Of a DNA stretch of 64,000 bases, positions 15,836-21,855 are shown one piece after another (the stretch's first letter is position 1; the number at the start of each line of letters is the position of its first letter). A program made the position numbers and the translations under genes. The stretch comes from Kitasatospora paranensis. Its GTDB lineage: Bacteria > Actinomycetota > Actinomycetes > Streptomycetales > Streptomycetaceae. Where the stretch lies: NCBI RefSeq assembly GCF_039544005.1, contig NZ_BAABKV010000001.1, positions 7,192,001-7,256,000 of the forward strand, written 5' to 3'. The notes below the pieces were generated by a model, which had not been told where the DNA came from, did no database searches, and worked only from the letters and a program-made list of their open reading frames with translations.

Positions 15836-17056
15836 TCAGTGTCCGTCGTTCACCGGGAGGTTGAAGCGCAGGGCGGGCGAGGCGTGGGCGGCCAGCGAGT
15901 GCGCCTGGTCGGCCCACCAGGCGCCGGCGGCGGGGTCGGCCGCTCCGTACTCGGGATCGGTGCCGCCGGTGGTGCCGCGGGTGCAGCTGCCGTCGGACTC
16001 GCCCGGTACCTTGACCCACAGGAAGGCGTCGAGCAGCGCGGTGTGCGTGTCCGCGGTGGGCCGGGTGCCGAGGCCGCGGCCGGGCGGGTTGCACCAGGTC
16101 TGGGCGTCCGGGTAGTCGGCGGTCGGAGTCCACGGTCCCTGGCCGTTGCGGCTGCTGTCGATGACGAAGTGCGGCAGCTTGGCGTCGGCGGGCACGTGGG
16201 CGGCGTACCAGGCGTCCGCATCCGCCTGCGGCCAGTACTGGTTGGCGCAGTCGTCGGGGGAGGCGCCGGCGGTGTTGGTCAGGTACCAGGTGCACTTGGC
16301 CACCTGGGTGCCGTAGCGCACCAGGTCGGCGTCCTTCTGGTAGTTGGAGACGTTGAGGAAGAAGCCCTGGGCCCGGTTCACGCCTCCGTCGACCAGGAGC
16401 CGGGCCATGGTGCCGGTGTTCTGCCAGGCGCTGTGGCCGGCGTCGAGGTAGACGGCGGCGTTGGGCTGGGCCACCAGCCGGTCGACGGCGCCGTTGATCT
16501 CGGCCAGCCGGTCGGTCTGCTGCTGGGCGGTGCCGCCGCAGAATGCGGGGCTGAGGGCCAGCCCGTCGGGCTCCAGGACGACCACCGTGCGGTGGTCGCC
16601 GATGCCCTGGGCGAGGGCGTCGACCCAGGCCGCGTACTCGGTGGCGTTGGAGGCGCCGCCGGCGGAGTACTGCGAGCAGTCGCGGCCGGGGACGTTGTAC
16701 GCGACCGCGACCGGGACCTGCCGTTGGAGAGCGGCGCGGCTCTGCAGCCGGGCCATCGCAGTGGTGGTCTCGCCGGGTGTCGCCGTGCCGTTGAACCACT
16801 GGGCGACCGGGTACGAGGCCATCCGGGCCATCGCCAGGGCGTCGCCGTAGTCGCCGGCGCGGAGGTCGGTGGCGGCCTGGTGCACGGCCTTGCTGTCGAG
16901 GTCGACGTAGAAGCTGCTGCCGGGGGCCGGAGCCCGGTCGGCACCCGCGGTCGTCCGGGTGGACGCGTCGGCGGTCGCGGGGAGGCAGCAGACCGCGGCG
17001 GTGGCGAGCACGGCGCTCACGGCCGCGATACGACGGCTGGGGCGGGGGCGGGACAC
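15836..17056 (-). CDS. Secreted GH6 endoglucanase (cellulase)
   Basis: A 406-residue secreted glycoside hydrolase of family 6, with a signal peptide of about 30 residues ending near TADAS. The two GH6 signatures are present: VAYNVPGRDCSQYSAGG (about residue 115-131) and VLEPDGL (about 160-166) with the catalytic aspartate; cysteines expected to form disulfides are conserved. There is no binding module, so it likely acts on amorphous cellulose together with the GH5 enzyme. The GTG at 17056 is preceded by AGGAG. A perfect CebR box 69 bp upstream predicts repression by CebR and induction by cello-oligosaccharides. Confidence 0.95.
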   Translation of the reverse strand: MSRPRPSRRIAAVSAVLATAAVCCLPATADASTRTTAGADRAPAPGSSFYVDLDSKAVHQAATDLRAGDYGDALAMARMASYPVAQWFNGTATPGETTTAMARLQSRAALQRQVPVAVAYNVPGRDCSQYSAGGASNATEYAAWVDALAQGIGDHRTVVVLEPDGLALSPAFCGGTAQQQTDRLAEINGAVDRLVAQPNAAVYLDAGHSAWQNTGTMARLLVDGGVNRAQGFFLNVSNYQKDADLVRYGTQVAKCTWYLTNTAGASPDDCANQYWPQADADAWYAAHVPADAKLPHFVIDSSRNGQGPWTPTADYPDAQTWCNPPGRGLGTRPTADTHTALLDAFLWVKVPGESDGSCTRGTTGGTDPEYGAADPAAGAWWADQAHSLAAHASPALRFNLPVNDGH

Positions 17057-18371: not shown

Positions 18372-19427
18372 CTACTGGATGTCGAGGACCTGGCCCGGGT
18401 GGATCAGGTCGGGGTTGTCGCCGACGGTGCTCTGGTTCTGGTCGTAGAGGTGCTTCCAGCCGCCGAGCTTGTGGGTGTCGGAGATCCCGGAGAGGGTGTC
18501 TCCGGGGGCGACGGTGTAGGAGGTGGTGTCCGGGGCGGTGGCCGGGGCCGGCAGGGCCGTGCCGTCCGTGGTGGTCGGCGTGCCGGTGGCGGCCGTCGGG
18601 TCCCCGATGGGTGCACCCGGCGTGGTGCCCGTCGTGCCGGTGCCGGTGCCGGTGCCGGGAGCGGTGGTGGTGGTGCCGGTGCCGGTGCCCGGGGTGTCCG
18701 TCGTGGTGCCCGGGGCGGGCGTGCCCGGCGCCGGGGTGGTCGTCGTGGTCGGAGCGGGCGTGGCGCTGCCCGGTGCGGGGGTGCCGGTGGTGGGCGCCGG
18801 GGAGGCCGTGCCGGTGTTCTGCTCGTAGACCTGCTGGCTGGTCGTCCAGTACCAGGTGCCGTTCGCCTGGTACCAGTACACGCCGGTGGCGGCGTCCAGG
18901 CCCTGCATGCCGGGGAAGACGGGGGCGGCGCTGCCGCGCTGCGTCGGGACGTCCGGCGTGGTGGTGACCGGTGCCGACGGCGTGCCGGTGGTCGCCGGTG
19001 CGCTCGGCGTCGTGGTGGCGGGCGCGCTCGGCTGGGCGGTGGCCCGGCCCTCGCCGGTCAGCCCGGCGCCAGTGGCGCAGCTGCCCCAGACGGAGGCGCC
19101 GCGGTCGGCGAGGATGCGCTCGGCGACCGCGATCTGCTGCTCCTTGGTGGCGTGGTCGGGCTCGGCGGCGTACGCGTCGCCACCGTAGGCGACCCAGGAG
19201 CGAAGGTCGATCTGGAGGCCGCCGTAGGCCCCGTTGCCGGTGTCCTTGGACCAGTTGCCGGCGCTGGCGCACTGGGCGACCGCGTCCCAGGTGGTGGGCG
19301 CGACGGCGTGGGCGCCGGTGGCGGTGAGCAGTGGCAGGGCGATTCCCACGCCTGCCACGCCCGCCGCAGCGACGGCGCGCTCGGTCTGGGTGGGGCGGCG
19401 GTGGCGGCCGGAGCCGATGAAACCCAT
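18372..19427 (-). CDS. Secreted Rpf-like protein with C-terminal LysM; catalytic Glu replaced by Ala
   Basis: A 351-residue secreted protein: signal peptide ending near residue 41 (TGAHA), an Rpf domain (about 44-120), a long Thr/Pro/Gly linker and a C-terminal LysM domain (about 302-350, SYTVAPGDTLSGISDTHKLG) that binds peptidoglycan. Rpf enzymes cleave peptidoglycan and promote spore germination and regrowth. The Rpf motif normally reads CESxGNW with a catalytic Glu; here it reads CASAGNW, with Ala54 encoded by GCC. WDAVAQC before it and GAYGGLQID after it are intact. The protein may therefore be a non-catalytic binding protein or use another residue. Expression should be controlled by the c-di-AMP riboswitch directly upstream. 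Confidence 0.9.
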   Translation of the reverse strand: MGFIGSGRHRRPTQTERAVAAAGVAGVGIALPLLTATGAHAVAPTTWDAVAQCASAGNWSKDTGNGAYGGLQIDLRSWVAYGGDAYAAEPDHATKEQQIAVAERILADRGASVWGSCATGAGLTGEGRATAQPSAPATTTPSAPATTGTPSAPVTTTPDVPTQRGSAAPVFPGMQGLDAATGVYWYQANGTWYWTTSQQVYEQNTGTASPAPTTGTPAPGSATPAPTTTTTPAPGTPAPGTTTDTPGTGTGTTTTAPGTGTGTGTTGTTPGAPIGDPTAATGTPTTTDGTALPAPATAPDTTSYTVAPGDTLSGISDTHKLGGWKHLYDQNQSTVGDNPDLIHPGQVLDIQ

Positions 19428-19441
19428 CGAGTTCCCTCTCC

Positions 19442-19606
19442 GCACGCCTGCGAGGTGAGCTGTCGGGTTCGGACCGGGAGGTGGCCCGGCCGCGCGAGGC
19501 GGCTTCACCCCTAGCCGTGGAGGACGGCGTGGTACGTGTGGGTCCCCCGTCCCTGCCCAGGGTCTGGTCGGTGACCCGGTGACGCGGTGGGCAGGGTTCG
19601 GCGTGC
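19442..19606 (-). ncRNA. ydaO-type c-di-AMP riboswitch (5' UTR of the Rpf/LysM gene)
   Basis: On the minus strand the leader carries conserved ydaO blocks in order: ACGCCGAACCC, AGGGACGGGGGACCCA, AGGGGTGAAGCC, GAACCCGACAGCTCACCTCG and AGGCGTG. The outer stem pairs GCACGCC (19600-19606) with GGCGTGC (19442-19448), closing the element 14 bases before the coding start. In Streptomyces this riboswitch class is known upstream of rpf and other cell-wall hydrolase genes, where c-di-AMP turns expression off. The position and blocks make this assignment firm. Confidence 0.93.
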
Positions 19607-20084: not shown

Positions 20085-21614
20085 CTACCGCGGGCCCGGG
20101 GGCCGGACCGCGGCCGGGGTGTCCTCCGCCGTGATCGGGCGTGCGCCGGGAGTGATCGGCGAGGGCAGTTCGTCCCGTCCGGTCAGGTACCGGTGCACCG
20201 CGGCTGCCGCGGCACGGCCCTCGGCGATGGCCCAGACCACCAGCGACTGGCCGCGCCCGGCGTCACCGGCGACGAAGACCCCGTCGGGGCCGGCCGCGAA
20301 GCCGTCGTCCCGGGCGAGGTTCCCGTGCCCGTCCAGGTCGAGGCCGAGCTGGCGCACCAGGGCGGTACCGGGCTCCGGGCCGGAGAAGCCGAGGGCGAGC
20401 AGGACGAGGTCGGCCTCCAGGGTGTGCTCGGTGCCGGGCAGTGGGGCGCGGGTGCCCGGCGCCGCGTCGGCGATCCGCACGGCGGAGACCCGGCCCCGGG
20501 CGTCCGTGTCGAAGCGGACGGTCGCCGAGGCGTAGCACCGGATGTCCGGCCCGTCGCCGTCCGCCGGCTGCCGGCAGGCGCAGGCCTCCTCGTGCGAGGT
20601 GGTCTCGTGGTGCACCTTGGGGTGCACGGGCCACGGCTGCGCGCCCGGGCGGCCGTCCGGCGGCCGCGGGTTGATGTCGAGCTGCCGGACACCGGCGGCC
20701 TGCTGGCGGACGGCGGTGCCCACGCAGTCGGCCGCGGTGTCGCCGCCGCCGATCACCACCACCCGGCGGTCGAGGGCGCTGACCGGCGAGGCCGCCAGGT
20801 CCCCGGCGGCCACCCGGTTGGCCAGCGGCAGGTACTCCATGGCCTGGTGGATCCCGGTCGATCCCCGCCCCGGTACTGGCAGTTCCCGCCACGCGGTGGC
20901 GCCGACCGCGATCACCACCGCGTCGTGGCCGGCCCGCAGCTCCGCGGCCGACAGGTCCTCGCCGACCGTGACGCCGGTACGGAACTCCGTCCCCTCGGCA
21001 CGCAGTTGCTGGATCCGGCGGTCCACCCGGTGCTTCTCCAGGCGGAAGTCCGGGATGCCGTACCGCAGCAGGCCGCCCGGGCGGTCGGCGCGCTCGTACA
21101 CCGTGACGTGGTGCCCGGCCCGGGTGAGTTGCTGGGCGGCGGCCAGCCCGGCGGGACCGGAGCCGACCACGGCGACCGTCCGGCCGCTCCGGCGGTCGGG
21201 CGGGCAGGGTACTTCCCAGCCCTGCTCCCAGGCCCGGTCGACGACGGCCAGTTCGACGTTGCGGATGGTCACCGGCTCCGCGTCGATACCCAGCACGCAG
21301 GCGCTCTCGCAGGGGGCGGGGCAGACCCGGCCGGTGAACTCGGGGAAGTTGTCGGTGGCGTGCAGCCGGTCGGCGGCGTCCCGCCAGTCGTCGTCGGCGA
21401 CCAGCCGGTTCCACTCCGGGACGAGGTTCCCGAGCGGGCACGCCTGGTGGCAGAACGGGAGCCCGCAGTCCATGCAGCGCGCCGCTTGGCCGCCGATGAT
21501 CGGGAGCAGCGCCCCGGGCTGGTAGACCTCCTGCCAGTCCCGCACCCGGGCCCGGGCGGCGCGCCGGGCGCGGAGCAGCCGCGGCGTGGTCAGGAACGCC
21601 TTGGGGTCGGCCAT
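20085..21614 (-). CDS. gltD: Glutamate synthase small subunit (NADPH-dependent)
   Basis: A 509-residue iron-sulfur flavoprotein. An N-terminal double 4Fe-4S region (CMDCGLPFCHQACP, Cys47/50/55/59, and CPAPCESAC later) is followed by FAD- and NADPH-binding folds (GSGPAGLAAA near 148, GGGDTAADCVGTA). It transfers electrons from NADPH to the large subunit in glutamate synthesis from glutamine and 2-oxoglutarate. No gltB lies beside it, whereas streptomycetes usually have gltBD together. It could be a second copy serving another electron acceptor, or a homologue acting with a distant gltB. The ATG at 21614 is chosen over an upstream start at 21701 because of conserved MADPKAFL. Confidence 0.9.
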   Translation of the reverse strand: MADPKAFLTTPRLLRARRAARARVRDWQEVYQPGALLPIIGGQAARCMDCGLPFCHQACPLGNLVPEWNRLVADDDWRDAADRLHATDNFPEFTGRVCPAPCESACVLGIDAEPVTIRNVELAVVDRAWEQGWEVPCPPDRRSGRTVAVVGSGPAGLAAAQQLTRAGHHVTVYERADRPGGLLRYGIPDFRLEKHRVDRRIQQLRAEGTEFRTGVTVGEDLSAAELRAGHDAVVIAVGATAWRELPVPGRGSTGIHQAMEYLPLANRVAAGDLAASPVSALDRRVVVIGGGDTAADCVGTAVRQQAAGVRQLDINPRPPDGRPGAQPWPVHPKVHHETTSHEEACACRQPADGDGPDIRCYASATVRFDTDARGRVSAVRIADAAPGTRAPLPGTEHTLEADLVLLALGFSGPEPGTALVRQLGLDLDGHGNLARDDGFAAGPDGVFVAGDAGRGQSLVVWAIAEGRAAAAAVHRYLTGRDELPSPITPGARPITAEDTPAAVRPPGPR

Positions 21615-21855
21615 CGACGGCCTCCGCGGTGCGGTTCGGCGCTGGACGTTCGGGGAGCGGGCGAGCGGGTGGCACGTATGCGCACAGTGCCGTGTCGCCA
21701 CCGTACGCCTGCCCGGGGCGCGGGGGAAGCGGGCGTGTCGGAAGCCTCCGGCCGGGCGTGGCGGAAGCCTCCGGAGGGTTGTGGCGGAGGTGCCCGGGCG
21801 GGTGTCCCGGGGTCGCGCGGGCCGGCCCTGGCGCGGTGTCCCGGGGCGCGCTAAT

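Follow-up and report, generated by a model that had tools for sequence, protein, structure and literature searches.

The gene considered here lies on the minus strand of a 64,000-nucleotide stretch of the Kitasatospora paranensis genome (contig NZ_BAABKV010000001.1, positions 7,192,001 to 7,256,000), hereafter the window, whose own numbering is used unless genome positions are indicated. The open reading frame extends from 18372 to 19427, with the ATG at 19427 and the stop codon ending at 18372, and its translation is an Rpf-like protein of 351 residues. Two neighbours on the same strand, both named from sequence, serve as markers of the orthologous locus: a gene resembling that for the small subunit of glutamate synthase (gltD, 20085 to 21701) and a GH6-like secreted glycosidase gene (15836 to 17056).

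The protein is modular. A GRHRR-type signal peptide (MGFIGSGRHRRPTQTE...LLTATGAHA), recognized from the sequence, covers approximately residues 1–46 (19290 to 19427); its spacing is fixed and it is kept in nearly all paralogues. The Rpf (Transglycosylas) domain, PF06737, occupies residues 45–117 (19077 to 19295) according to Pfam and an AF2 model, and its match of 94.9 bits against a curated cut-off of 27 places the protein in the Rpf family by homology. The low-complexity linker between this domain and the LysM carries a YWYQANGTWYWT module of the form YWYQxxGxWYWT (18819 to 18917, limits approximate), delineated from the sequence and the AF2 model, in which it consists of strands plus a helix. 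A Pfam search of the window protein gave no match for this module, which is possibly a wall- or glycan-binding element; it is missing from part of the divergent group described below. The LysM domain (PF01476, 27.4 bits) is identified by Pfam at residues 304–350 (18378 to 18518). The Rpf, YWY and LysM parts are all predicted confidently, with pLDDT mostly 76–94 across the Rpf domain. The predicted Rpf part matches RpfB (4emn) with a TM-score of 0.96 (target length) and an rmsd of 0.8 Å, and the crystal structures of RpfB, RpfC and RpfE within 0.7–1.3 Å for most chains.

Upstream of the gene, a c-di-AMP (ydaO/yuaA) riboswitch aptamer, RF00379, spans 19429 to 19580 on the same strand: the covariance model is matched in full (positions 1–134) with 56.7 bits against a gathering threshold of 38. 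The 3′ end of the riboswitch adjoins the start codon and includes a Shine–Dalgarno-like GGAGAGGGA just upstream of the ATG; this sequence (19427–19445, minus strand) is located directly 3′ of the closing stem. No intrinsic terminator was found between the aptamer and the start codon. The Shine–Dalgarno-like sequence next to the closing stem, combined with the missing terminator, would fit translational or factor-dependent control. The riboswitch of Streptomyces coelicolor rpfA acts by premature transcription termination (PMC10117811). The interval initially assigned to gene and riboswitch together, 18372–19606, runs slightly beyond the end of the riboswitch at 19580.

The catalytic position

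The codon at 19266 to 19268 is GCC and, by translation and alignment, encodes Ala54 at the position where the solved Rpf structures among the alignments listed have the catalytic Glu; the numbering coincides with that of E54 in Micrococcus Rpf. The remaining Rpf domains of the K. paranensis genome, a frameshifted one among them, all show C-E-S at this site. The disulphide cysteine pair, Cys53 and Cys117, is present in the window protein, which also retains Asp48 and Gln72; Thr77 in the cleft is replaced by Ser. The original prediction had proposed an Ala (GCC) in place of the catalytic Glu of a protein that keeps its signal peptide and LysM under a full ydaO riboswitch, and each of these features holds. 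It had also called for a survey of orthologues: at the corresponding locus of three further species (copies L089, L091 and L092), gltD and GH6 genes lie nearby and the catalytic position is again Ala. A sequencing error is ruled out by the recurrence of Ala in this four-species syntenic group and by further Glu losses elsewhere.

A divergent lineage within Kitasatospora

A scan of one genome each for ∼85,000 species, based on an Rpf motif with C, G or T as second base of the catalytic codon, returned three records, two from Kitasatospora and one from Streptomyces sp. NRRL B-24484, and this is the only group represented. A widespread feature is thus rejected for codons of this kind, to which the scan was confined outside the genus. 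A relaxed motif was detected in 10 of 395 Streptomycetaceae genomes, all ten belonging to Kitasatospora. A plasmid origin was likewise rejected, as the best two plasmid relatives are ordinary Glu-containing Rpf proteins with ∼51–53% identity. Searches of the open-licence literature turned up no description of a naturally Glu-less Rpf, whether in Kitasatospora or elsewhere; as far as searches show, the natural group of Glu-less Rpf proteins is previously undescribed.

When 70 genomes of the genus were searched for the GRHRR signal sequence at its fixed spacing from the Rpf domain, 67 proved to contain at least one Rpf protein of the riboswitch type. Canonical copies have Glu54 without exception (57 of 57). 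A divergent copy occurs in 18 of the 70 genomes, accompanied by a canonical one in 17; in G010 the divergent copy was found and the canonical copy was not. Residue 54 of the divergent copies is Ala in seven (G000, the genome of the window, G029, G038, G049, G053, G006 and G057), Val in two (G019 and G059), Met in one (G050) and Glu in eight (G005, G054, G061, G066, G068, G033, G067 and G010). All ten genomes with a Glu-less protein harbour a Glu-containing copy of the same type as well. In K. paranensis this canonical paralogue is L003 (genome position 5039261), with the same type of signal peptide, YWY module and LysM, and with a riboswitch.

Other Rpf genes of K. paranensis display features of their own. 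Three short genes at genome positions 877161, 943198 and 7609787 (L005, L006 and L007) are near-identical, with 98.5–98.7% DNA identity over 456–868 bp, which suggests recent duplication. A tandem pair, L002 and L009, is found at 6194707 and 6195783, ∼1 kb apart, and at 4865838–4866061 an Rpf domain is split across two frames (L011/L012), apparently by a frameshift.

In a maximum-likelihood tree of 75 proteins, computed with the catalytic column left out, the divergent copies form one side of a branch whose support, 87/91, is not decisive. Six changes between Glu and non-Glu are needed on this tree, and five or six in 99.9% of 1000 bootstrap trees; a single loss, with the Glu-less proteins as one clade, is rejected (p-AU 0.0003). 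Change counts alone do not separate loss of Glu from gain. Glu is taken as ancestral, being present in every canonical copy and in the solved Rpfs, and it would have been lost about six separate times within the genus.

The rest of the domain shows both relaxation and constraint. Glu54, Gln72 and Thr77 occur together in all 57 canonical copies and in none of the 18 divergent ones: the three relatives of the window protein in its clade have Gln72 and Thr77 and are deprived of Glu only, and the eight divergent copies that keep Glu have lost Gln72, Thr77 or both. Gln72 is lost in seven of these eight and kept in seven of the ten Glu-less proteins, an opposite pattern that is only suggestive given the shared ancestry. 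By alignment Gln72 is equivalent to Gln69 of Rhodococcus Rpf-1, the residue with the greatest effect on muralytic activity in that study (PMC6534110). Around the cleft, Gln72, Phe73 and Thr77 are relaxed across the divergent group. Of 42 positions invariant in the canonical copies, 24 show no variation among the ten Glu-less proteins either; they include both cysteines, Cys53 and Cys117, together with Trp47, Trp59, Gly69-Gly70-Leu71, Trp78, Gln98-Ile99, Glu103 and Trp114.

Selection, possible residual activity and a possible regulatory role

The reading frame is intact in all ten Glu-less copies, which are full length and include the LysM. Among the Ala orthologues L089, L091 and L092 the dN/dS of the Rpf domain is 0.22–0.26, reaching 1 or more in 0–1.3% of resamples: the close Ala pairs are under purifying selection after the loss of Glu. 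The Val pair gives 0.38 and canonical pairs 0.03–0.35 for the same domain. Comparisons of the window protein with its orthologues give 0.52–0.67, with wider intervals reaching ∼1, values compatible with partly relaxed constraint. The two hallmarks of a pseudoenzyme, loss of the catalytic residue and purifying selection on the domain, are both found, the latter more weakly for the window protein against its orthologues.

A separate case is L086, the Glu-containing divergent copy of G005, whose frame is lost before the LysM through either decay or sequencing error.

It appears rather probable that the window protein is a member of a recurrent Rpf pseudoenzyme lineage, binding the wall and possibly modulating active Rpf. 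The alternative that it is a slowly decaying enzyme, made redundant by approximately ten other Rpf domains and retaining riboswitch and fold as leftovers with no present role, is unlikely. Decay would accommodate the variation of cleft residues even among Glu-containing divergent members, the raised dN/dS against canonical copies, the LysM frame lost in L086 and the presence of a divergent copy in just 18 of 70 genomes. It is at odds with the full-length Glu-less copies and the low dN/dS of the close Ala pairs, with a scaffold of 24 positions, both cysteines among them, that is invariant after about six separate losses, and with the riboswitch, which scores above the RF00379 threshold in all 18 divergent copies (44–65 bits).

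Similarly improbable is the alternative that the window protein retains full or weak muralytic activity, perhaps on a different substrate, with catalysis depending on another acid: Asp48, or the lineage-specific residues at 74 or 84. Asp48 is present in all ten Glu-less proteins and Asp84 in nine. However, Asp84 is also found in six of the eight Glu-containing divergent copies and so did not arise to replace Glu, and Asp74, shared by the four proteins of the window clade, does not occur in the remaining Glu-less proteins; the relaxed cleft residues Gln72, Phe73 and Thr77 also speak against activity. The literature on Glu-to-Ala mutants is conflicting: E54A abolished the resuscitating effect of Micrococcus Rpf (PMC12090717), and M. 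luteus Rpf E54A and E54K are reported as essentially inactive, as cited in PMC6534110, whereas Rhodococcus Rpf-1 E51A lost just 11% of its muralytic activity and kept ∼89%, and the D45A and E51K double mutant lost 84% (PMC6534110). As the Rhodococcus mutant kept so much activity and the window protein keeps Asp48 and Gln72, residual activity is possible. Its loss of hydrolysis is inferred.

On the pseudoenzyme interpretation, the window protein probably serves as a helper or competitor that does not itself cut, as opposed to being a damaged enzyme. In a divergent riboswitch-controlled paralogue, wall cleavage would have been repeatedly given up and the domain retained; the secreted protein would still sit on peptidoglycan through its LysM and Rpf fold, with little or no cutting, and may compete for glycan sites or act as a partner modulating active Rpf and endopeptidase enzymes. 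Precedents exist in DipM, in which an inactive hydrolase domain regulates autolysins (PMC10336132), and in RpfB, which binds RipA and synergizes with it (PMC2912383); the regulator model rests on these, on the common riboswitch family and on the presence of an active-type paralogue. Because the riboswitches of the two paralogues belong to the same family, c-di-AMP would move both together, and the speed of wall remodelling in spores or hyphae could consequently be set by the proportion of active to inactive protein. A more far-reaching proposal is tentative: a c-di-AMP-controlled Rpf paralogue may have turned about six times into a non-cutting wall-bound regulator, one messenger balancing active and inactive Rpf in germination or osmotic stress. 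Selection for a non-hydrolytic role, as first suggested for this gene, finds support in the maintained domain (intact frames, invariant scaffold, dN/dS of 0.22–0.26), in the riboswitch of every divergent copy and in the repeated loss of Glu; the decoy or regulator part is a plausible best guess only, based on precedent and on the occurrence of a canonical paralogue in each Glu-less genome.

Relation to known systems

Dormancy in actinobacteria is ended by Rpf proteins, and whether wall cleavage suffices to explain the awakening, or binding and partners also play a part, is still debated. A natural lineage with repeated loss of the catalytic Glu that retains the fold, a wall-binding domain and c-di-AMP control would offer ready-made separation-of-function proteins for this question.

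The window protein has PF06737, the predicted fold (TM-score of 0.96 to RpfB 4emn), the disulphide cysteines and a secretion signal in common with Mycobacterium tuberculosis RpfB, RpfC and RpfE, Micrococcus Rpf and S. coelicolor RpfA, and a LysM as in Micrococcus Rpf. It departs from the known Rpfs in having Ala in place of Glu54 and in its altered Phe73, Thr77 and other cleft positions. As in Streptomyces, where c-di-AMP riboswitches control rpfA and other wall hydrolases (PMC10117811), the Rpf gene of the window is immediately preceded by a ydaO riboswitch; the targets published for Streptomyces are presented as hydrolases, whereas the window protein is devoid of the catalytic residue. Like DipM of Caulobacter, a LytM-type protein, it combines a wall-hydrolase fold lacking catalytic residues with a location outside the membrane at the wall (PMC10336132). 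Fold and enzyme class are unrelated, LytM endopeptidase in one case and lysozyme-like in the other, and regulation, which has been shown for DipM, is inferred for the window protein.
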